NCBI GenBank assembly: GCA_017464475.1 | Contig: JAFTZQ010000024.1 | Location: 1-39,539, forward strand | Length of the DNA: 39,539 nt | Direction of reading: 5' to 3' | DNA from: Paludibacteraceae bacterium | GTDB lineage: Bacteria; Bacteroidota; Bacteroidia; Bacteroidales; Paludibacteraceae | Shown here: in pieces, positions 19,708 through 38,365 of the stretch | Position numbering within the stretch: position 1 is the stretch's first letter | How the letters are laid out: each line of letters begins with the position of its first letter | Program-made: the position numbers and the translations under genes | The notes under the pieces: model-generated | Told to the model about the DNA's origin: nothing | Databases searched by the model: none | The model's input: only the letters and a program-made list of their open reading frames with translations

Positions 19708-19827
19708 TTATGCGAAGCAGAGACAGAGATTATCCACTTCGGATTGAAGTTTGGCGGGATTAGATCTCTTGAGTTTGGTAAGTTTGAGTAGCAGCTCCAC
19801 TTTACGGGCAAAAACAGGACTATACAT
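19708..19827 (-). CDS. Small ORF overlapping the AbiEi-like gene, 39 aa
   Basis: The ATG sits inside the last codons of the AbiEi-like gene (8-nt overlap, ATGTATAG), the usual spacing for translational coupling in AbiE operons. The product is basic at first and then acidic (VELLLKLTKLKRSNPAKL), ending LCLCFA. It has no similarity I can recognise to the nucleotidyltransferase toxin AbiEii, which is much longer. It may be a truncated partner, a small independent protein, or chance. Nothing coding follows it before the VanX promoter. Confidence 0.4.
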   Translation of the reverse strand: MYSPVFARKVELLLKLTKLKRSNPAKLQSEVDNLCLCFA

Positions 19828-20581
19828 AATTATAGACTTCAGTTGGGATGGTTATGTTATACTTGCTGACGTACTTACCTGTCGGGCTGATCATCCGTCG
19901 TCCGCGCCCCAGATCCACATGACTTGTATCTATCGCTTTGTACCAAGGATAGTTGGCTTTCTCAGCCAAATAAAGGAACAAACGCTTTACTTTGACCGAC
20001 GAACATTGTTCCAGTAATTGCTGAACGAGTTTCGGGCGCAAAGTGGTTAGCATTTCCATAATATAATACGTGTCCATGAGTGTCTGCGCTATGAAAGGAC
20101 GATTGAGACATTCCATGATAGCTCGTTCGGGAGAAGAGATAAGCAGTATTCTACCATCTTCTTCACGCTGCTCTAATCCGAGACTATTATCCGCCCAAAG
20201 TGATATGGTGTGATATCGAATTGTTCGATCCCATTCGGTTGTTAGAAACCATTGCGGCAGTTTTGCATGTGACTCCGTGAAGAGAAAAGCCAACGGTTTG
20301 CCCATCGGCACATAATGTGAGTACCCCCGTATATCCAAAGCTGTCTCGGCGCCTATGATACATTGCTTGCCGAGTTGGGAGTTATACGCAGATACAGCAC
20401 TAAAGAGCGGCACATTTGCACCTGCCACTTTATACACGCCATGAGCCACTTTCTCAAGCCATCCGCTTTGCACATACGCGGCTTGTTCTGCTCGATTGAT
20501 TCCCTGCGCGGTCAACCATGAACTGAACAGCAGAGTGTCTGTTCCATGAGCATCTATTATTTGCTTAATTTTTGTAGCCAT
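19820..20581 (-). CDS. AbiEi-type transcriptional regulator/antitoxin
   Basis: The 253-aa layout fits type IV antitoxins. There is an N-terminal winged-helix region (SWLTAQGINRAEQAAYVQSGWLEKVAHGVYK, about 22-52), in which a Trp-Leu-x-x-Val-x-x-Gly-Val-Tyr motif is diagnostic. A longer C-terminal domain with SSPERAIMECL (about 148-160) and RLFLYLAEKANYPWY follows. Family members repress their own operon and neutralise AbiEii, giving abortive phage defence. Here no AbiEii follows, only a 39-codon ORF, so the gene may be an orphan. Its own promoter is at 20619-20649. Confidence 0.82.
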   Translation of the reverse strand: MATKIKQIIDAHGTDTLLFSSWLTAQGINRAEQAAYVQSGWLEKVAHGVYKVAGANVPLFSAVSAYNSQLGKQCIIGAETALDIRGYSHYVPMGKPLAFLFTESHAKLPQWFLTTEWDRTIRYHTISLWADNSLGLEQREEDGRILLISSPERAIMECLNRPFIAQTLMDTYYIMEMLTTLRPKLVQQLLEQCSSVKVKRLFLYLAEKANYPWYKAIDTSHVDLGRGRRMISPTGKYVSKYNITIPTEVYNYV

Positions 20582-22585: not shown

Positions 22586-23422
22586 TTAATCGTTGCCTTC
22601 GGTAAGGCGTTTGATTTCATTATTTTCAATAAGTGAACGCATCTGGGTAATTGCAATCTGGTTGAGCTGGCGCAGACGTTCAGCAGAGGATAAACCCTGA
22701 CGGATAAATACAGCGTTCAAACTCTCCATATTACTTAACACTACCAGTTGTTCTAAAGTAGCATAATCACGCATGTTGCCTTCTTTATCCGGATTCGCCA
22801 TCCGCCACTGGATAGCCGTCATTCCAAACAAGGCTACGTTCAACAGATCGGCTTCTGATGCGTATATGCCTGTGAGTTGTTGCGGTGTTACCTCTGGCGG
22901 AACAAGTGTGTCTTTGATAGCGTCCGTATGAATACGGTAATTGATTTTAGAAAGAGTGCGCTGCACGCTCCAACCTAATTTCAGACGGTCAGTTTCGTCA
23001 TCTTTGAGGCGTTGGTACTCGCGAATGAGATAGAACTTGAATTCCGGACTAAGCCATGACGCAAATTCAAAAGCAATATCTTTATGCGCATAAGTACCTC
23101 CGTATCTGCCGGGAGTGGCTACTATACCGATGGCGTTGGTCCGTTCTATCCATTGTTTGCTCGTCAGGACAAATCCATTCGTGCCTGCTTCCATTCTAAT
23201 ATTACTGAATTCCGTAACATTAAAATCGGGATTATTAATGCGCTCCCAAATACCCAAGAAGTCCACCGCATAGCGCGTAGAAAGCCAGTGAGAAATGACC
23301 AAGCCAGTTGCCTCTGCATTCTTGTATCTCGCCATGTCTGTGAGCGAGATGTAATCCTCTGTTTGCTGCTTGATAATTACTACTTCGTCATTCCCTACCT
23401 GTATAGTACGTTTCTTTGCCAT
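22586..23422 (-). CDS. KilA-N domain protein, 278 aa
   Basis: The N-terminal KilA-N DNA-binding domain occupies about residues 10-125. Evidence is ISLTDMARYKN, IVISHWLSTRYAVDFLGIWE-type sequence, and the conserved end GRYGGTYAHKDIAFEFASWLSPEFKFYLIREYQRLK. The C-terminal half (LTGIYASEADLLNVALFGMTAIQWR) is helical and typical of chromosomal or prophage KilA-N proteins; its role is unknown. KilA-N proteins occur in phages and in accessory islands, usually as DNA-binding regulators. The start codon and leader lie within a repeat that is duplicated after the stop, suggesting a mobile or exchangeable cassette. Confidence 0.9.
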   Translation of the reverse strand: MAKKRTIQVGNDEVVIIKQQTEDYISLTDMARYKNAEATGLVISHWLSTRYAVDFLGIWERINNPDFNVTEFSNIRMEAGTNGFVLTSKQWIERTNAIGIVATPGRYGGTYAHKDIAFEFASWLSPEFKFYLIREYQRLKDDETDRLKLGWSVQRTLSKINYRIHTDAIKDTLVPPEVTPQQLTGIYASEADLLNVALFGMTAIQWRMANPDKEGNMRDYATLEQLVVLSNMESLNAVFIRQGLSSAERLRQLNQIAITQMRSLIENNEIKRLTEGND

Positions 23423-23524: not shown

Positions 23525-25012
23525 CTATTTTGTTATTATCTCCCAATGACCGCCTTTATCCGGTCCGACACGGCGGATGATGCCTTGTTCCTGCAAATTC
23601 TTGAGGTGTACTTGCACATTACGTGGTGCTATTCCGACTTCATTAGCTATCGAATCAGCCGTTGCGTTCGGATTCTTCCATATATATCGTACAATTTTTG
23701 CACGCATCGTAGATAAGTTTTCTACGATGTTTTCTACGATGTTTTCTACGATGGTATTCTCCCTACTTGCATGTCTTATTTGATGTCCCGTTTGATCAGT
23801 AACTGGAGCATCACTTTCTTTTACTGCACTTTCGGGCGTAATGATTTCTTCAAAGAGAGTCGTTTGGAGAATGAAATAATTAGGATTAAAATTCAGTAAG
23901 GGTGTTCCGGTTTGCTCCAACTCCGTACAGATACGATCAATACCTTCTCCAAACTCCTTAACAAACTTATATGCCTTCAGAAACAAGGCAATCTTCGGAT
24001 TTCGGGAGAAATGGGTGTGGCGGATATTCTCCGGTCGTACCAAACCCGGCAGACGTCCCGGCGTCTCAAAGACAATACGGTTGTCGAACATCTTGATCTG
24101 AATCTCTGTGCCGGCTATACTATAATCCCGATGACAAACAGAATTGACGACCAACTCTTGTATCGCAAATTTAGAATAGTTGCGCTTGGTCACAAATTGT
24201 CCGTGTTCTCCCAAGAACGAATACTCACGCACTTGCGTCTCCAGATAATCTATCGTACGCCGCACTTGATCCAAGATGGTACCTTCAAATGTCACGTCTT
24301 TTATGACATTCATCTCACGACCGAACTTTTCCTCTGTACCATTATAGCGAATAAACCGGGTACGGGCACGTTGGAAAAAACGTTGCGGATATTTTCCGAA
24401 GAGTAAGATGCACGCCTTGCTGATTCGTTCTTTGCCGTCCTTTGTAGTAATAAAATTGTTATTCTCACGCAAATACTCCAAGGGAGACTTGCCATACCCG
24501 ATAGTTCGCACGAAATCAGCAACGGCTTCCATATTGACATCCTCAATAGTGGCATCAGCTAAAGGCTCATCCTCAAAATTGCGTTCGCCTTTGTCAGACA
24601 TCAGTTGCAACCGCTCTTCAAAATTCAGTTTCTTGCTCTTATCTCCGACACGCATATAACACTCATCGTTCTGCGTAGCATGCAGACGACTGCTAGCAGG
24701 CACTTGAATAAGCAGAATCCGGTTGGCTCGCCCGTGTTCGTCCGTACAAGGCAAATAGGAAAAAGAGACAGGGACAGAAGGCACACAGAGATCCATCGGC
24801 ACACACAACAAGTCATTGAGGTGCTTTGCCTCTTGGTCAATACCCTCAATGCGCCGATTCGTATCAGAGACACCAACTGCCAGTATTCCGCCATCCGCAT
24901 TAGCCATCGCCACAATGGGAACAGCCAGAGCTTTTGCGCTGACCTGAATACTCTTGCAATCGAAAGTTTGTCCTTCGGGCAGTTGTTGTATGTCTTCAAG
25001 AGTTAACGACAT
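23525..25012 (-). CDS. AlbA_2/Schlafen-type ATP-binding regulator with C-terminal winged helix
   Basis: This 495-aa protein is often named RecG-like although it is not a helicase. An N-terminal AlbA_2 (DUF4062/Schlafen-fold) domain spans about 1-135 (FDCKSIQVSAKALAVPIVAMANADGGILAVGVSD). The next region holds a GHKL-type ATPase-like segment (KFAIQELVVNSVCHRDYSIAGTEIQIKMFDNRIVFETPG in parts, about 280-325), with the conserved N-box ELVVNSVCHRDY. A winged helix at about 430-490 follows (NATADSIANEVGIAPRNVQVHLKNLQEQGII). Three tandem IVEN motifs link the parts. It is probably a nucleic-acid-binding regulator. It has its own promoter. Confidence 0.88.
   Translation of the reverse strand: MSLTLEDIQQLPEGQTFDCKSIQVSAKALAVPIVAMANADGGILAVGVSDTNRRIEGIDQEAKHLNDLLCVPMDLCVPSVPVSFSYLPCTDEHGRANRILLIQVPASSRLHATQNDECYMRVGDKSKKLNFEERLQLMSDKGERNFEDEPLADATIEDVNMEAVADFVRTIGYGKSPLEYLRENNNFITTKDGKERISKACILLFGKYPQRFFQRARTRFIRYNGTEEKFGREMNVIKDVTFEGTILDQVRRTIDYLETQVREYSFLGEHGQFVTKRNYSKFAIQELVVNSVCHRDYSIAGTEIQIKMFDNRIVFETPGRLPGLVRPENIRHTHFSRNPKIALFLKAYKFVKEFGEGIDRICTELEQTGTPLLNFNPNYFILQTTLFEEIITPESAVKESDAPVTDQTGHQIRHASRENTIVENIVENIVENLSTMRAKIVRYIWKNPNATADSIANEVGIAPRNVQVHLKNLQEQGIIRRVGPDKGGHWEIITK
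23717..23752 (-). repeat. In-frame 12-bp tandem repeat inside the AlbA_2 gene
   Basis: Three perfect GTTTTCTACGAT units encode three IVEN motifs just before the winged helix. The unit length is a multiple of three, so copy-number change would alter linker length but not the frame. Confidence 0.9.
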
Positions 25013-31161: not shown

Positions 31162-31509
31162 TTATTTCTTTTTGCTATATTTGGATTTGACAATCTCGTA
31201 AGAGTTGCGGGTGAGGTCGCGGAGCAAGGTGTCCGGCGCAGTACGCGGATCAATGCCCAGCCAATATTTGGCGGATTCGTTATAGGGCTTGCCGATGCAG
31301 TCGTATTGCGCTTTCAGTTCGTCTATCCGCTCGGGCTGGCATTTGAGTGTCACGACGGAGTAATCGGCGCAGTCGAAGAACGCGAACATGTGTCCGCAGA
31401 CATAGAAAACCAACACGTTCTCGCCGCTCTTGAACATGGTGAACGGCAGTTTTTCCTCTACATCTGCGCCCAGCGAGAGGCAGTAGTCTCTGTAATCTTC
31501 GATGTTCAT
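31162..31509 (-). CDS. MmcQ/YjbR family protein, copy B
   Basis: Starts at ATG 31509; the longer frame to 31605 reads into the lipoprotein gene. This is the duplicate of the gene at 28294-28641. All 8 differences fall after residue 72, and the DNA of the first half is also closer than that of the second half. This pattern suggests recent duplication with continued exchange of the 5' part. It overlaps the upstream lipoprotein gene by 4 nt and sits 11 bp before DUF389. Confidence 0.92.
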   Translation of the reverse strand: MNIEDYRDYCLSLGADVEEKLPFTMFKSGENVLVFYVCGHMFAFFDCADYSVVTLKCQPERIDELKAQYDCIGKPYNESAKYWLGIDPRTAPDTLLRDLTRNSYEIVKSKYSKKK

Positions 31510-32021
31510 TTTGTTAACGTATTCAGGGTAGTTATGGAGAGTTCGCTCATGCCTTCGATGGCGTCGCTCACGTTGAGCAGCAGTTTGGGGTTGCTCACAT
31601 CCCAATGGAAGGTGCCGGAGTCACTGTAACGCGCCGTCTCCGATTGCAGCACATAGACATAGCCGAAAGTCCTGCCGTTTTGGACGAGGCGGTCGATACA
31701 GAGGACACGCTTCGCTTTGCGGTTGATGACGATGTTGCGCCAGATGACGCTGGACGGCTGTGTGTGGTGGGTCGGGGCAAAAGTAGTCTGGTAGATCATG
31801 CTTGCTCCTTCGCTGTCCACCTCATAGTCCGGAAGCAGGCTGATATAGGCATCGCTGCGGAAGGAATAGGTGTTGTCGTGGTTGCTAACCGCCTTCAGAT
31901 CGCTTACCTTGAAGGGAAGGTCCTTTTGCACGTCTTTTGCGAATTCCTCGCTTGTGGTTGGCCTTTGTACCGCGCAGGAGCAGAGGGCAAAGGCTAATAT
32001 GTAAAATATGGTTCTTTTCAT
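31506..32021 (-). CDS. Lipoprotein of unknown function, 171 aa
   Basis: The start ATG 32021 gives MKRTIFYILAFALCSC, a short signal peptide with lipobox at Cys16. Its signal sequence resembles that of the DUF6624 lipoprotein at 37284 (MKRTVFYILVLALYGC). The mature part is beta-rich with a repeated aromatic pattern (SMIYQTTFAPTHHTQPSSVIW; VLCIDRLVQNGRTFGYVYVLQ). No family is recognised. It starts the large leftward operon and lies 34 bp after the Hsp70-like gene, so it may also be reached by read-through. Confidence 0.78.
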   Translation of the reverse strand: MKRTIFYILAFALCSCAVQRPTTSEEFAKDVQKDLPFKVSDLKAVSNHDNTYSFRSDAYISLLPDYEVDSEGASMIYQTTFAPTHHTQPSSVIWRNIVINRKAKRVLCIDRLVQNGRTFGYVYVLQSETARYSDSGTFHWDVSNPKLLLNVSDAIEGMSELSITTLNTLTK

Positions 32022-32055
32022 TTTGTTATTTTGTGCAGTCATAGTATATTATAAC

Positions 32056-33648
32056 TTAATCATCCGCTAAACCATACATATCTTCTGGCCTACGTCCCCA
32101 AATCAATTCAGGTGCATCGCCTTTCTTTGGAAGGTGCGCGAAGATTTCATGTAAATCGGAAATTTTAATATTGTCACCTTCTTCTCTTTGTACAGACAAA
32201 CCCAGTGCAGTAGAAAGAATAGGAGCCAATGATAACACCTCGTCTGCTTTCTCTAAATAGAAGCCATTCCATATACGTTTGTCCATGCGTCTTATATCAG
32301 TAAATTGATGTATCTCCTGGCAAAGGAAATCATAAGTGGAACCGCCACCGCTATAGACCACAATTCTATTTTCCAGAGCTTCATATATCGCAATCTTTGA
32401 TAAATCAACCTTGTCAAATGCTTTGAGAATATCGTGAATTATCATCTTGCATGAATTTCTAACTTCCTTAATCAGAGAATCTACAGCCATAGCACGATCA
32501 CACTCTGGAATATCATTTAACGAATTTTGTCTCCATATATCAAGGTGCTTAGCCGAAGTCTCTACGATATAATTAATACCCTTATCAATTGAAGTATAAC
32601 CGTATATGTGAGGGGCATCGTCTTCGTCTATATTGAACAGCGAAATATCTGTAGTACCTCCTCCAATATCAACGACAAAACTAATACCTTTTTCAATTTG
32701 CTTTTTGGCAGTAACAGTCACTAGGTTTGCATAGGCTTCCGGTAAAGCCAAAATACCATACTCTTTCGCTTTCTCCTCTGATGGGTGAATTATTTCCGTT
32801 AATTCAGTTAATTCTTGATAGGTAGATAAGAGGAAAGCATCTTTATCTCCATGAAATACATCTTCCACCAAATAATATGCAGATAAAATCAAGCGGTATG
32901 CATGATTTCTTCGAGTGAATAATCTCTTGGCATCTGTAGGAAATCCCAACTGAACGCTAAAAGTCTGACCATATTCTGCTTCTAAATCAAATAAGATATT
33001 AGCGATGTACCAGATAGATAATAAGTCTTTATCTATGCTATCATTCCATCGAATGGCATTTGAGAATGTAGCTTGTTTGAAATAGCGGAAAATAGCCGGT
33101 ACTTTATGTGTCGCTTTATACTCCCACTCTCTATGTTCTTCCTCATATTTCCGCATGGCTTGTTCATACAAAGCATACTCTTGCTCAAATTTCTTTTGAG
33201 CCTTCTCATATTTAATTTTCCATATTCGCAAATCTTGATCGTAGTCCAATTGCGCTTCCTTACAGGCTTTTTCCCATTCTTGTTCTTGTGAGTTCTTTCC
33301 ACCAGCCCACGCCTTTAGTACATCCTTCCAATCTTGTTTTTGAGGCTTAGGTTTCTCTGGTAATTTCAATTTTGGCTTAGGCTCAGAAAATACCATGACA
33401 GGCTCTCGCAAATTTGGCATCTGAGGTTCTGCTCCTGCATCCACGCCGATTTCTCCGACACATGATTTATTAACATGTCCATACGTCAAAGTATCGTCAT
33501 TGTTTATCTGAACAACCGAAGGCAAAGTATATGACTCCCCATCCGGTGTTTTGAATTTCCAAAATTTATATACTGGACGCTGAGGGTCTGAGCGATCCTC
33601 TATGCATACCTTTGTTTGATGAGTTCCAAAGTCAAATCCAACAACCAT
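32056..33648 (-). CDS. Hsp70/actin-superfamily ATPase with coiled-coil insertion
   Basis: A 530-aa ATPase of the Hsp70/actin fold. The phosphate-1 motif is VGFDFGTHQTKV (3-14), LPEAYANLV (302-310) is like the connect region, phosphate-2 is VVDIGGGTTDISLF (325-338), and the adenosine motif is VVYSGGGSTYD (430-440). Between residues about 115 and 180 it carries a long charged coiled coil instead of the usual Hsp70 subdomain. The C-terminal peptide-binding domain of DnaK is absent. It is 4 bp downstream of the SNF2 helicase and surely works with it. The role is unknown; clients could be the helicase or a phage component. Confidence 0.85.
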   Translation of the reverse strand: MVVGFDFGTHQTKVCIEDRSDPQRPVYKFWKFKTPDGESYTLPSVVQINNDDTLTYGHVNKSCVGEIGVDAGAEPQMPNLREPVMVFSEPKPKLKLPEKPKPQKQDWKDVLKAWAGGKNSQEQEWEKACKEAQLDYDQDLRIWKIKYEKAQKKFEQEYALYEQAMRKYEEEHREWEYKATHKVPAIFRYFKQATFSNAIRWNDSIDKDLLSIWYIANILFDLEAEYGQTFSVQLGFPTDAKRLFTRRNHAYRLILSAYYLVEDVFHGDKDAFLLSTYQELTELTEIIHPSEEKAKEYGILALPEAYANLVTVTAKKQIEKGISFVVDIGGGTTDISLFNIDEDDAPHIYGYTSIDKGINYIVETSAKHLDIWRQNSLNDIPECDRAMAVDSLIKEVRNSCKMIIHDILKAFDKVDLSKIAIYEALENRIVVYSGGGSTYDFLCQEIHQFTDIRRMDKRIWNGFYLEKADEVLSLAPILSTALGLSVQREEGDNIKISDLHEIFAHLPKKGDAPELIWGRRPEDMYGLADD

Positions 33649-33652
33649 ATTA

Positions 33653-36600
33653 TTATTTGATATTGATTAGGTTAATCGAAACTAATTTATAACTAACTTT
33701 GAGCTCAAAATCACGAAGCAGAATGGCTCGTTTCTCTTGATACTCTTGTTCTACATTTTGCATACGTGTCTCTGTTGCCTTTATACGCTGCTCAGCGTTT
33801 TTTCTTTCTTCATCTGACCATGCGTAAGTATAAGCATCTTGAGCACGCCTCAACTGGTTCTCTAAGCGAGCCATTTCTTGGAATTGGTGAAACTTTTCCA
33901 TTTGAGAAAGCTTGATATTCTGCTGGCTTCGCAGATTCACTTCCAAGTCTTGCTTGCGCTCTTGAGCGTATTTCGATACATTCTCAAGCAAGGCATATTT
34001 CAAATTTTCAATATGCTCGTCATTGTAATCAGGTAGGTTTGCTATATTGCGATAACTGCCGTATACTTGACTTTGACCAAGCATCTTGAAAACTATATTT
34101 TCATCGGCAATAACCATATCATTCTTCCAATCGTATAAAATCGGATATTGTGTCGATGTTTCCTTGAGTGCTCCCTGAACAACGTAGCTGGTCTCTATGG
34201 AATAGATAGCAAGGAAATATGATTGTTCCATTAATTGTACAGGAAGGTATTGTTTGTCAATATCAAACACGAAAGTAATATCGTTCGGATTTTTTTCTAT
34301 GTTGAAATATTGCAGTGCTGCTTGAATAATTGGATGATGAATGTTAACAAAAATAATCTCGGGATTCTCATATGCCACTTCTTGCTTGAAAGTAATTAAG
34401 AACTCAGACTTCTCCATAGTTTTTGTTTTGAACACAGAGAATTGGTATTGTGATTCATCATCAGAAGGCACATATTGAGCCAAAAAATTCTTCAAACATC
34501 CGACATTGGCTTTTGGCAAGCAGAACTTGTACGTGCCATTCCCAATACTTTCAAGAGCACATGCTGGAAGTCTTTTGTGGATTAGTAAAACTACGTACGA
34601 CAACAACTCGTTATCGGTCAAATACGAATGGGTGGTAAGGATACGATTCACCTCATTCTGAAAATATGTGTCAATAGTTAGTGTGTTGGTCTGGTTCTCT
34701 TCGATTTTCTTAATTTGCTGTTTCTCATTTTCAATGGCTTGTGCTATATCATCAATTTTGCGCTGTCTTTCTGTGGCAGACAGATTATTACAAAATAGAT
34801 CTTTTTCCAATTTGGTATATGCAGACTGAATCGTATCAGTTGTTCCTGCATAACTGGCATCTAAGATGGCTTCCAAGTCTCCTATGGACTCCGTGAAGAT
34901 ACCGATACGCATCAATAAGCGTTGATATATATCTTCTTGAATGGAGTTATGCACTACCAAATTGTAAATCTTTACTATCGGACTTTGTTGCCCGAAACGA
35001 TCAATACGACCGATACGCTGCTCGACTACCATCGGGTTCCAAGGGAGGTCGTAGTTCACCATTGAATGGCAAAATTGTAGGTCAAGACCTTCACTTCCAA
35101 CTTCAGAGGAGAGTAATATTTGAATTTTGGGGTCGTGCTTAAATCTTGCCAATTCTTCATCGCGGTTTTCCATACCACCCAATATCATTGCACACTTATA
35201 TCCTGCTCTTCCTAAACGGATACGCAGATACTTTAATGTTTTTTTGAAGATGGCAAATAAAATGATTTTCTGTTCTCCGTTAGAACCTAATACCTCATCT
35301 AAAATATTAAGTAATAACGAGACCTTGGCATCTTCACAGTCAGCATAGCGGTCTATGCCTTTATCCAAGTCATCGTCGTCATTAAGATATGCATAAACAC
35401 TACTCGCGACCTGACGCTTCTTAGTAACAAGACCAAGTGAAGCACCTGCATTTAGTTTTTCTTCTCCCCATTCATCAATATATGAATTATCTTCAATATA
35501 TTGTTCAATTACATCATCGAATACCTCGCGCTCCTTGGGATTTAGTTCTACTGATATAGGAAAAGGATGTCGCTCTGCTTGAGTCCAATCTGTTGTGATT
35601 TCTCTTCGCCTTGTCCTTGAAAATATATTATTCAATTCGCTCATTGATGTAATGTCGAATTGTAACTTAGCTCTGATGGTTAGGTTGTCATCGCCACTCT
35701 TCATTGTTTCAACACAACGTTGATACAATGGGTTGTCCGCATAGTAATCAGAAATCTTTACAATTTGTGGTCTGTAAAACTCTGATCCGTTATCTTCATT
35801 ATAGAATCGATATTGAAGCGCAATTTCAGCATTGGATAAATCGGCGCAAATATCTCTTAATGGACGTGCAGTCCTCAGTTCTCGTAATGTTTGTAGAAAA
35901 GGCTGATTCAGTGATAGACTATTATGAAACTCAATATCATTGTCAAATTGTACTGGTGCTAATATGTGCAGCAAATTATATAGGTTTTCATCGCTGATCA
36001 TAATTGGTGTAGCCGTTAGCATGACCATGGATCTCGCTTGCGCTGCAATAAGTTCCACACCTCTATGGGTTGCTGTAGAAGCATTACGAACTTTGTGTGC
36101 CTCATCGCAAAGTACAAGGCTAAAAGTAATTGCAGAATGAACGATGATATTTAGAAATGAATTAGGATCTTCTTGTTTCTTCTTGTCGTCTTTACGTGGT
36201 GCTTGAACCCTTTCGTAGTTGATAATGCCACGGAATGAACCATTACGCATGCGGATGTCACTAAGAAAGTCCTTCGCATTCTCATAAATCTTAAACTTGA
36301 GATTGAACTTCTCGTCCATTTCGTTTTTCCATTTCAATCTCAATGATTTAGGGCAAATAATCAATACATTGCGCAACTCTTTTCGTGCCAACATTTCAAG
36401 CATGATATGTCCGGCTTCAATAGTTTTACCAAGACCGACTTCGTCTGCAACTAATAAGCGACGATTTTCTGAGTTTAAGAATTTGAGTAGCGGCTTAAAT
36501 TGATATGCTTTGAATAAAGTTTTTGATGCTTTTAAGGATGCAATTGTACTATTACTTGAATTCTCTATTTTATAAGACGTATTGATGCGAGCAAAGTCAT

Positions 36601-36820
36601 CATAAGAACCAAATTTATGTTTCTTTATTCTGTCAAAAGGGTTGCTAATATCAAAGTCTTCCAAAAGGAATGACTCCAAAATCGTTTCTGCATTGGCTGA
36701 GCCATCAAACCTAATATCATAAGTCTGACGACCTCGGCTCGGTTGACCAACAGAAACAATTTGTCCTCGTTTATTAGAAACAACCTCTCTAACAATATCT
36801 CCTATAGAAAACTTTGGCAT
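33653..36820 (-). CDS. SNF2/RapA-like DEAH-box ATPase
   Basis: A 1055-aa SNF2-family ATPase (start ATG 36820; a TTG at 36829 also fits). An N-terminal SH3-like segment (FSIGDIVREVVSNKRGQIVSV) is followed by the ATPase: Walker A DEVGLGKTIEAG (126-137), DEAH at 239-242, LTATP at 268-272, and QRIGRIDRFGQ at about 601-611, the RapA-like motif VI. A C-terminal region of about 400 residues ends in a long charged coiled coil (about 960-1040). RapA recycles RNA polymerase, but accessory homologues with extra domains are common in phage-defence islands. Its AT-rich base composition differs from the flanks. Confidence 0.9.
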   Translation of the reverse strand: MPKFSIGDIVREVVSNKRGQIVSVGQPSRGRQTYDIRFDGSANAETILESFLLEDFDISNPFDRIKKHKFGSYDDFARINTSYKIENSSNSTIASLKASKTLFKAYQFKPLLKFLNSENRRLLVADEVGLGKTIEAGHIMLEMLARKELRNVLIICPKSLRLKWKNEMDEKFNLKFKIYENAKDFLSDIRMRNGSFRGIINYERVQAPRKDDKKKQEDPNSFLNIIVHSAITFSLVLCDEAHKVRNASTATHRGVELIAAQARSMVMLTATPIMISDENLYNLLHILAPVQFDNDIEFHNSLSLNQPFLQTLRELRTARPLRDICADLSNAEIALQYRFYNEDNGSEFYRPQIVKISDYYADNPLYQRCVETMKSGDDNLTIRAKLQFDITSMSELNNIFSRTRRREITTDWTQAERHPFPISVELNPKEREVFDDVIEQYIEDNSYIDEWGEEKLNAGASLGLVTKKRQVASSVYAYLNDDDDLDKGIDRYADCEDAKVSLLLNILDEVLGSNGEQKIILFAIFKKTLKYLRIRLGRAGYKCAMILGGMENRDEELARFKHDPKIQILLSSEVGSEGLDLQFCHSMVNYDLPWNPMVVEQRIGRIDRFGQQSPIVKIYNLVVHNSIQEDIYQRLLMRIGIFTESIGDLEAILDASYAGTTDTIQSAYTKLEKDLFCNNLSATERQRKIDDIAQAIENEKQQIKKIEENQTNTLTIDTYFQNEVNRILTTHSYLTDNELLSYVVLLIHKRLPACALESIGNGTYKFCLPKANVGCLKNFLAQYVPSDDESQYQFSVFKTKTMEKSEFLITFKQEVAYENPEIIFVNIHHPIIQAALQYFNIEKNPNDITFVFDIDKQYLPVQLMEQSYFLAIYSIETSYVVQGALKETSTQYPILYDWKNDMVIADENIVFKMLGQSQVYGSYRNIANLPDYNDEHIENLKYALLENVSKYAQERKQDLEVNLRSQQNIKLSQMEKFHQFQEMARLENQLRRAQDAYTYAWSDEERKNAEQRIKATETRMQNVEQEYQEKRAILLRDFELKVSYKLVSINLINIK

Positions 36821-36890
36821 AATATACAACTGTTTATCTTAATAAATATAATTTATCCATTTAGGGCATAGTTAGCAGGAAAAGAATAAT

Positions 36891-37010
36891 TCATCTATCA
36901 AGCAGCCACTCTGCCAAATCGATGATTTGAATACCTTGGTAATCGTATTTCGGTACGCGAGTGCGGGCAATACTTCCCAAAATCACATTTTTTACAATTT
37001 GGAAAGTCAA
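36891..37010 (-). pseudogene. Possible coding remnant in the SNF2 leader
   Basis: A minus-strand frame with no ATG (TTG at 37010 or GTG at 36986) reads TFQIVKNVILGSIARTRV and then PKYDYQGIQIIDLAEWLLDR to a TGA at 36891. The composition is protein-like and it reads like the C-terminal end of a larger gene, but no family is recognised. It starts at the predicted transcription start site, so it is not a normal start. Confidence 0.3.
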
Positions 37011-37078
37011 ACCCGCTACAAAGGTACTCTTTTTTTGTTAATTATGCAAGAGTTTGCACGCTTTTTCCATAAAATCAT
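37010..37078 (-). promoter_or_regulatory. Promoter cassette copy P1 (SNF2-Hsp70-like unit)
   Basis: Read leftwards: a TTGC -33 element (37046-37049), TACCTTTG -7 box (37019-37026), and a run of seven A residues between them. The 70-bp segment recurs at 37218-37286 and 38277-38348. Confidence 0.72.
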
Positions 37079-37084
37079 CCTGAT

Positions 37085-37210
37085 CTATGCTTCTTTCCGC
37101 AGTTGGGCGATGATGATTTTCAAATCCAAAGTACCTTTTGCCTCTTTTAATTGATCCTGTAATAATGTACGTTCAATCAGTTTCATTTCCAAAACTTTAA
37201 TTATTTTCAT
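37085..37210 (-). CDS. Small chimeric-looking ORF, 41 aa
   Basis: Starts at ATG 37210 just below promoter copy P2. Its first ~20 codons (MKIIKVLEMKLIERTLL) match the frame fused ahead of the DUF6624 lipoprotein gene at 38196-38270, at 15 of 17 residues over the best part. Its last residues, KIIIAQLRKEA, resemble the C-terminus of the paralogue at 38937 (FIIAQLRKEAE). It could be a real small protein or a deletion relic that joined two genes. It lies between P1 and P2. Confidence 0.55.
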   Translation of the reverse strand: MKIIKVLEMKLIERTLLQDQLKEAKGTLDLKIIIAQLRKEA

Positions 37211-37217
37211 TTTTTAG

Positions 37218-37286
37218 AAATCCGCTGCAAAGGTACTGTTTTTTTGCTAATTATACAAGAGTTTGCACGCTTTTCCTATAAAATCA
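37218..37286 (-). promoter_or_regulatory. Promoter cassette copy P2
   Basis: Read leftwards: TTG-type -33 element (37256-37258), TACCTTTG (37228-37235). It matches copies P1 and P3. It begins at the stop codon of the DUF6624 gene, whose TAA is at 37284-37286. Confidence 0.7.
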
Positions 37287-38195
37287 TTTATTCCATTTAG
37301 CGTTCATCTGTTTTGCATATTCTTCCAACGGAGGCATACCTGCTGCGCTACGCCAGATATTCACACTATCAGTATTGAGCAAAGTGTAGATCACTCGCTC
37401 TCCTGTTGAATCTTCTACAATCTGCGATCCGTACCGCTGCGGCTTGCCTTCAAACAGGGCGATACGATCTTCCAACAAAGCCATATCCTCCATGCTCAGT
37501 TCGCCTTGTTCTGCCGCTTCGCGCAAGAATGGATAGAACTCTTTTTGCGTATCGAGATCGCTATGCTGGACTACAAGCCATATAACAGAGTTCGCCGAGC
37601 CTACTATTGTTTTAGACGGAAAACCGTACGTGTCAAAGATGTCCCGGATTTCTTGCAGATTGGCCTCGTCTGCTTGTTGCATAGCGTGGATGAGTGAATC
37701 ACGTAGGACTGGATTATCCGGCTTCGTCTGACAAGCAAACAAGAACGCGTGTCTCGGTTCTTGGTCGCGCAAGAAGATGGTTCGCAGGCGTGCAATCAAT
37801 TCATGATTATAATCTTTCTCTATGCGCTCTTGTCGGGATTGAACCGTGTCTTTCAGCACTTGCCATTCGGGGAATTGATGTAATGGCAGAAAGTCCGGAT
37901 TCTCCGCAAAGTTGGAAGTGTACCATTCTTTGTCGTTGCTAATCAATTGGTTGAGGCGCATGAATGCAGTTTGCTCATCACCTGCCATAGCTGCGATTGC
38001 GGCTGCATTGGAATAGTGATAGTCCTGTGGTGCTGCATCGGAGGCATTGAAAGCTTGTTTGTAATAACTGTTAGCCTGCTTGTAGTCTTGTGCCATATAG
38101 CACGAATCAGCCTTTTGTACCGCCTCGTGAAATGCCAACGGCTTTTGACATCCGTATAATGCAAGTACCAATATGTAAAAAACAGTTCTTTTCAT
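37284..38195 (-). CDS. DUF6624 lipoprotein with TPR-like N-terminus, 303 aa
   Basis: I chose ATG 38195 because it begins a proper lipoprotein signal peptide (MKRTVFYILVLALYGC, Cys16). The in-frame ATG 38270 adds 25 residues shared with the 41-aa ORF and no export function. The N-terminal region is TPR-like (VQKADSCYMAQDYKQANSYYKQAFN). The C-terminal domain shows the DUF6624 signature (QHSDLDTQKEFYPFLREAAEQGEL, RIALFEGKPQRYGSQIV). Cell-envelope location is expected; the function is unknown. The gene lies downstream of promoter copy P3. Confidence 0.82.
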   Translation of the reverse strand: MKRTVFYILVLALYGCQKPLAFHEAVQKADSCYMAQDYKQANSYYKQAFNASDAAPQDYHYSNAAAIAAMAGDEQTAFMRLNQLISNDKEWYTSNFAENPDFLPLHQFPEWQVLKDTVQSRQERIEKDYNHELIARLRTIFLRDQEPRHAFLFACQTKPDNPVLRDSLIHAMQQADEANLQEIRDIFDTYGFPSKTIVGSANSVIWLVVQHSDLDTQKEFYPFLREAAEQGELSMEDMALLEDRIALFEGKPQRYGSQIVEDSTGERVIYTLLNTDSVNIWRSAAGMPPLEEYAKQMNAKWNK

Positions 38196-38270
38196 TCTGC
38201 CTCTTTTAACTAGGTCTAGTAATAATGTACGTTCAATTAGTCTCATTTCCAAAACTTTAATTATTTTCAT
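38196..38270 (-). repeat. Duplicated 5' segment of a small ORF fused in frame to the lipoprotein gene
   Basis: These 25 codons are the counterpart of codons 1-20 and the following segment at 37134-37210 (both read MKIIKVLEM-LIERTLL, then diverge). They run in frame into the lipoprotein start at 38195. The duplicate extends to P3, giving about 140 bp of homology at both sites. Confidence 0.7.
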
Positions 38271-38276
38271 TTTTCA

Positions 38277-38348
38277 GAAATCTGCTGCAAATATACTCTT
38301 TTTTTGTTAATTATGCAAGAGTTTGTTCGCTTTTCCTGTATTATCATT
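38277..38348 (-). promoter_or_regulatory. Promoter cassette copy P3
   Basis: Read leftwards: TTGC (38315-38318) and TATATTTG (38288-38295), matching TAnnTTTG; the spacer is 19 bp. Same run of A residues as in P1 and P2. Confidence 0.7.
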
Positions 38349-38365
38349 CTAATATATACCTCTTT

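Follow-up and report, generated by a model that had tools for sequence, protein, structure and literature searches.

The stretch of DNA analysed here (the window; 39,539 nucleotides, contig JAFTZQ010000024.1 of the Paludibacteraceae bacterium assembly GCA_017464475.1) is contig C12 of a 1.9-Mb genome that is 71% complete, and it carries on its minus strand two adjacent genes, encoding an SNF2-family ATPase and a protein of predicted Hsp70/actin fold. An original prediction, made from the letters alone, had placed here a RapA-like SNF2 protein of 1055 amino acids (aa) and an Hsp70/actin-fold ATPase 4 bp apart; both open reading frames (ORFs) are confirmed, the second following the SNF2 stop codon after 4 bp. 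The features of the pair are:

33653..36820, minus strand: SNF2-family ATPase of the RapA/DrmD/BrxHII type, 1055 aa, from its ORF and profile matches
36422..36436, minus strand: SNF2 Walker A motif GLGKT, residues 129-133, identical at all five positions in each of the 47 proteins aligned
36095..36106, minus strand: SNF2 Walker B box DEAH, residues 239-242, with D and E invariant and H in at least 90% of the alignment
34988..35020, minus strand: SNF2 motif VI region QRIGRIDRFGQ, residues 601-611, from the alignment of relatives and aligned with RapA
32056..33648, minus strand: predicted Hsp70/actin-fold ATPase, nucleotide-binding domain only, with an insert, 530 aa, from its ORF and profiles
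33085..33477, minus strand: insert at residues 58-188 of the Hsp70-like protein, coiled-coil-like in part, from alignment and a periodicity test

Translation of the first gene from a conserved ATG gives the 1055-aa protein, and an in-frame TTG 9 bp upstream (36829) would give 1058 aa. Pfam recognises SNF2-rel_dom (1.7e-21) and Helicase_C (8.1e-20). The test for helical and heptad periodicity is passed by SNF2 residues 655–720 (score reached by 4 of 2000 shuffles) and by the insert of the Hsp70-like protein (7/2000 for residues 112–185, 30/2000 for 58–188), and is failed by the C-terminal SNF2 helices at 930–1035 (830/2000); the long coiled coils originally predicted for both proteins therefore stand for the first two regions and not for the third.

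The second protein stays below every curated family cut-off, its weak matches among Pfam and curated profiles being mostly to families of the actin/Hsp70 fold, and Pfam HSP70 does not match it at E-values up to 0.1. A profile of 50 relatives finds weak similarity in the PDB to MreB (2e-4), Hsc70 (2e-3) and ParM (0.016), over the half that holds the phosphate-2 and adenosine motifs, and there is a weak match (3e-5) to the partition-protein family phrog_691. An actin/Hsp70 fold is what these sequence comparisons suggest. The nucleotide-binding motifs of Hsp70-type proteins are named phosphate 1, acid, phosphate 2 and adenosine; their residues are kept in 45–48 of 48 relatives which, with the invariant SNF2 Walker A motif, agrees with the earlier statement that both proteins have intact nucleotide-binding motifs. 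Because only ~400 aa lie outside the insert, there is little room for a substrate-binding domain, and judged by this length the protein consists of a nucleotide-binding domain, lacks a peptide-binding one and, as had been proposed, is not a standard chaperone. The insert measures 10-13 aa in 23 of 48 proteins (window included), 38 aa in one, 88-93 aa in seven and 129-216 aa in 17, the window protein being one of these 17.

Three more carriers of the pair (genomes G016, G589 and G517) came to light when samples of Bacteroidota genomes were searched with single sequences and with profiles. Weak matches were dropped before counting, in 18 of 20 genomes (leaving the window's own and G016), 17 of 19 (own and G589) and 12 of 15 (own, G589 and G517); from the matched region and ORF length they were judged, as a group, to be FtsA/MreB/ParM-like. 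When 84,980 species genomes were scanned with a profile, 584 pattern matches yielded 54 loci, three of them the known carriers. The 55 loci compared here comprise the window, the G589, G517 and G016 regions (L032, L049 and L033, replacing the copies L052, L054 and L056) and 51 loci of the scan, with surrounding genes called by a longest-ORF rule; they include the near-copies L061/L062 and L065/L066. The alignments hold 50 of the 55 Hsp70-like proteins (A4) and 47 of the 55 SNF2 proteins (A5), and comparisons over 48 rows leave out L055, L059, L062, L065, L084, L091 and L092.

All relatives (54 of 54) carry an SNF2 ORF on the strand of the Hsp70-like gene and directly 5' to it. The two genes are spaced by -14 to 25 bp in every one of the 55 loci except L055 (170 bp), where the SNF2 piece is short and the Hsp70 start unsure. 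The distance matrices of the two proteins correlate with r = 0.897 over 48 of the 55 loci, the best of 2000 permutations reaching 0.265. Across the 55 non-redundant loci, only these two families hold a fixed place. The SNF2 and Hsp70-like genes are a true unit that is inherited together, as had been suspected. Furthermore, because the genes are paired in all 54 relatives, the two proteins probably form a complex. A third conserved gene was considered and is not part of the core, the commonest family at a fixed place being a leucine-rich-repeat protein in 6 of the 55 loci. In one clade (L066, L069, L070, L073 and L077, with L065) a shared gene lies directly downstream of the pair and encodes a BspA-type leucine-rich-repeat protein in the two loci scanned (L069 and L073); the Hsp70 inserts of this clade are 88-93 aa long in the five loci measured. 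The SNF2 protein of L063 (2525-7321) has an N-terminal extension of ~300 aa with no Pfam match, and a gene that looks hydrolase-like by eye lies 3 bp upstream.

The history of the window itself is read from a relative of the same genus, G723, in which the sequences matching window positions 36971–36889 (95% identity) and 32027–31164 (83%) are separated by 14 bp. The DNA between them in the window and its surroundings are:

32028..36888, no strand: inserted segment, 4,861 bp, GC content (GC) 0.376, missing in G723
36889..36971, minus strand: host remnant, the last 26 codons of a gene intact in G723, 95% DNA identity
36972..37072, minus strand: host promoter-like stretch (TACCTTTG) of the deleted AAA ATPase-like gene, now ~200 bp upstream of the SNF2 start
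31506..32042, minus strand: flanking lipoprotein-like gene, 178 aa, of the host, directly after the ATPase gene in G723
37284..38270, minus strand: flanking DUF6624/TPR lipoprotein-like gene, of the host, outside the module

The inserted segment consists of both genes with short margins, 68 bp ahead of the SNF2 ATG and 28 bp beyond the stop codon of the Hsp70-like gene, and the pair entered the window genome together, as a whole inserted unit. Across 272 overlapping stretches of equal length from positions 1–32027, GC ranges from 0.439 to 0.534, above that of the segment, so that the AT-rich island of the original prediction is real; its end had been put at 37078, 258 bp beyond the SNF2 start, and has to be moved back, since the DNA past 36888 is that of the host. 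G723 has the complete upstream neighbour, a gene of 407 aa that looks like an AAA ATPase by eye; the window keeps only its promoter-like start and last 26 codons. Because that start survives, the stretch at 36972..37072, judged promoter-like by the Bacteroidetes promoter motif, may drive the pair. At 37009-38365, upstream of the pair and of a 328-aa lipoprotein-like gene, the start of a small ORF is duplicated and is surrounded by promoter-like repeats (3 x 88 nt and 2 x 144 nt). In a second relative without the pair, G740, the homologue of 37284–38270 continues straight into the leader that belongs to the gene at 31506–32042, and the gene arrangement beyond that junction differs from that of the window.

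The pair is rare. Among 295 genomes sampled from the order, that of the window included, each gene occurs in two genomes, which are the identical two, and 293 carry neither at cut-offs of 1e-10 and 1e-100, with the window's proteins in both profiles and that of G016 only in the Hsp70 profile. Every phylum-labelled locus in the SNF2 tree belongs to Bacteroidota, with the exception of L058, a metagenome-assembled genome (MAG) labelled Moraxellaceae, which nests inside a Bacteroidota clade and may be misbinned. The pair moves between gut and environmental bacteria. Two divergent copies, L066 and L104, are found in the same MAG (bacterium P3).

Recognised defence genes lie in the fetched flanks of at least 22 of the 55 loci, a lower bound, as many contigs are cut and the scan covered part of the neighbours. 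The PADLOC tallies take in neighbouring proteins from places +1 to +3 and -2 to -4 that are 120 aa or longer, 220 in all, leaving out the window, L062 and L065, with families taken from the best 25 of 403 and the best 25 of 232; cluster labels c2, c5, c7 and c16 combine these tallies with reading by eye, and L058, L093, L082 and L104 carry defence labels by cluster membership. The G016 locus encodes an Hsp70-like–PtuA fusion, after which come PtuB and genes of type III restriction–modification (R-M; Mod by eye). The pair of G517 (L049/L050) stands ahead of brxA-brxB-brxC; pglZ and brxL follow farther downstream, with a methylase, by eye, between. In L102, 35 bp separate the pair from BrxL upstream of it, and in L088 EVE-McrB and McrC lie directly upstream, 1 bp away. 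Type I R-M clusters occur in the flanks of eight loci (L063, L069, L086, L087, L088, L090, L101 and L103), C5 methylases in those of L097 and L105 (by eye and PADLOC tally), a PDC-S68 cluster in three (L053, L058 and L093), Eco57I-type methylase/ResIII proteins in L070 and, by cluster, L082 and L104, and GmrSD_N in the flank of L084. The label of L032 (G589) comes from its PLD, RecQ-like and HNH neighbours. In L078 (709-6822; Phocaeicola abscessus) the neighbourhood includes an 1807-aa protein with a C-terminus like that of MADS mad8, and a PP2C-like gene (by eye) lies 12 bp upstream of the pair. WYL regulators are also among the neighbours.

We conclude, with a probability of roughly 0.6, that the pair would be a transferable two-gene module acting against mobile elements (phages or plasmids), and it is probably a little-described piece of bacterial immunity. 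An accessory distribution and a neighbourhood of defence genes, as for an anti-phage system, are observed in a comparison made without a random-locus control. Absence from defence islands and universal presence in core genomes were both looked for, as far as the data allowed, and the defence reading survived. As a mechanism, the SNF2 subunit would track along duplex DNA or a DNA-bound polymerase, and the Hsp70-fold subunit would be a nucleotide-gated switch or adaptor that senses a cue of foreign DNA or infection. The insert (10 to 216 aa) or fused partner of the latter subunit would then pass the signal to an effector, and a linked effector (PtuAB fusion, R-M, McrBC or BREX) would cut or block. 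In stand-alone copies such as that of the window, the motor might strip or stall polymerases on invader DNA, or an effector elsewhere in the genome might be borrowed; because no nuclease is recognised there, the window pair would have to clear or stall the machinery itself or borrow an effector.

Several observations weigh against an immune function. The remaining 33 of the 55 loci, the window and 32 others, have no defence neighbour recognised among the scanned genes, and many gut copies lie among ordinary genes. The original suggestion of a defence role is supported by the rarity of the pair (2/295) and by the company it keeps in at least 22 loci, and not by the window copy, whose four flanking proteins have no PADLOC matches and whose further neighbours are YjbR and DUF389. 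The Pfam scan detects no nuclease family in either protein. Collections of plasmid and phage records hold no match to the Hsp70-like proteins of the window and L078, nor, for plasmids only, of L032. The density of clusters c2, c5, c7, c9, c12 and c16 is highest adjoining the pair (15 in 232 kb within 2.5 kb of it, then 6 in 199 kb, 7 in 158 kb and 0 in 77 kb beyond 7.5 kb), although the fall is not smooth and this is a small within-contig comparison rather than one with random loci.

The pair might instead be an accessory that boosts or regulates R-M, BREX or Septu-type effectors nearby or elsewhere, with no defence of its own. The pair does lie next to or inside type I R-M clusters and at both ends of BREX operons, and it is fused to PtuA. 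Moreover, R-M neighbours accompany Hsp70 inserts of at least 120 aa in 8 of 17 loci, compared with 2 of 31 for shorter ones (Fisher p 0.002), a link that comes down to three independent phylogenetic contrasts and is a hint rather than established; that insert length adapts the protein to R-M partners is not claimed. However, the window pair was inserted alone, and 32 other loci likewise have no recognised defence neighbours; we regard a purely auxiliary role as a serious but unlikely candidate. An immune machine that stands alone without a nuclease is a similarly speculative proposal. Here the SNF2 motor, in lasting partnership with the actin/Hsp70-fold ATPase, would remodel or clear proteins, for example polymerases, on invading DNA, and interchangeable effectors would be engaged through the Hsp70-fold subunit; such a machine would be a functional parallel to the eukaryotic SNF2-actin/Arp remodellers, and not a homologous complex.

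A role in transcription stress, which had also been raised at the outset, is less likely. The SNF2 protein would then be a paralogue of RapA, recycling stalled RNA polymerase or removing it from DNA under an Hsp70-fold regulator, with a benefit not tied to phages. RapA is indeed the closest solved structure by sequence, both helicase lobes align with the SNF2 protein, and a short post-helicase patch (query 806–838) lines up, with a score that is not significant alone. However, the protein scores 184 bits against a RapA cut-off of 576, compared with 356 for DrmD, and the pair is rare, mobile and found beside defence genes, unlike a housekeeping factor; a fixed Hsp70-like partner also sets the protein apart from RapA. 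We give this explanation little credence. Still less probable is a cassette for the maintenance of a mobile element, in which a ParM-like actin-like ATPase and a DNA motor would serve segregation or competition: the weak phrog_691 and MreB matches and one copy on an IMG/VR contig (L131) speak for it, whereas the inserted unit is two genes only, the record collections above yielded no plasmid or phage carrying the queried Hsp70-like proteins, and the other four of the five loci from the IMG/VR profile scan are weak matches without SNF2, two of them ParM-like by eye. A single-sequence scan of viral records with the Hsp70-like protein also gave no match. The fused G016 protein has 119 matches among plasmid records, the best 20 of which cover its PtuA-like ATPase part.

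Elsewhere in the window, genes at 19820-20581, 22586-23422 and 23525-25012, in a stretch that is AT-richer in patches, encode AbiEi-like antitoxin, KilA-N-like and AlbA_2-like proteins (by eye). The contig end (39385-39539) has 87-99% identity to five sites in the same genome, on C4, C11, C17, C19 and C26, and because of these five further copies this repeat probably broke the assembly.

Among known systems, DISARM provides the best SNF2 profile, DrmD (402.6 bits in PADLOC), in a single collinear match of residues 67-1038 to profile positions 69-1001 of 1021; however, the protein scores 355.6 bits against a curated cut-off of 610. The DISARM core proteins DrmA and DrmB carry MZB/DUF1998 (PF09369), which was not found in the window's own 71%-complete genome, and the SNF2 partner here is an Hsp70-like ATPase. 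With the score below the cut-off and no MZB protein, assignment of the SNF2 protein to DrmD, and hence of the pair to DISARM, was rejected. The DpdE profile gives 198 bits (cut-off 500).

RapA-like SNF2 helicases of BREX type 3 and related systems are described with TUDOR, SNF2, degenerate restriction endonuclease and C-terminal domains, the last with two coiled-coil-like helices (PMC12839542), and BrxHII/RapA-like helicases are given as common to DISARM class I and ARMADA (PMC12458937). By inspection, the domain order described for BrxHII (BREX type 3) and ArmA (ARMADA) fits the length and layout of the SNF2 protein, whereas the pair has no constant methyltransferase or YprA helicase neighbour, and the PADLOC BrxHI|BrxHII model gives 181 bits compared with 403 for DrmD. 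BrxA, BrxB, BrxC, PglX and PglZ are not beside the window pair (the four flanking proteins by PADLOC and the next neighbours YjbR and DUF389). On another contig of the window's genome (G000:C13:28578-33641) there are two PglZ-domain matches, one of them above the cut-off, which we take to be possibly PorX-like regulators rather than BREX.

Hsp70-like ATPases are described from CoCoNuTs and from GTPase conflict systems, and the present pair unites such an ATPase with a RapA-like SNF2 helicase. CnuD of CoCoNuTs and the HSP70-only proteins of GAP1-N2 GTPase systems are Hsp70-like ATPases in conflict, some without a peptide-binding domain; CnuD is described with both nucleotide- and substrate-binding domains, degenerate Walker A-like motifs and McrBC partners, whereas the present protein has a nucleotide-binding domain alone, intact motifs and an SNF2 partner, a distinction drawn from those descriptions. 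CoCoNuT type III combines an Hsp70-like protein of nucleotide- and substrate-binding domains with an NxD McrB GTPase; of the present loci, one (L088) has an EVE-McrB/McrC pair adjoining the module. As for Septu (PtuA-PtuB), a single Hsp70-like–PtuA fusion is recognised, that of G016, and neither PtuA nor PtuB is found in the window pair or its four scanned flanking proteins. In L033 (6706-9339), the PADLOC PtuA model PDLC00287 aligns into the Hsp70-like half, from residue 420, so that a portion of this Hsp70 domain may also be present in PtuA proteins already catalogued, at least in some.

The PADLOC candidate PDC-M61 was likewise rejected as an identity for the pair: 42 of 50 Hsp70-like proteins match PDC-M61B weakly (best E 2.6e-7), but the window protein does so over 44 residues with 22 bits, a short partial match, and PDC-M61A is not among the best 25 of 41 SNF2 matches. 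Neither the name PDC-M61 nor a description of the pair was found in the open-licence PubMed Central papers searched by word, subscription papers being outside this scope, which is in line with the original view that the pair is not a named system. The RapA-like motors of BREX, DISARM and ARMADA work within systems of many components, which makes their own contribution difficult to single out; in the pair, such a motor comes with a single constant partner in a unit of two genes and is found with several types of effector. In so small a system, what the motor does in bacterial immunity, and what Hsp70-fold switches do there, becomes directly testable.

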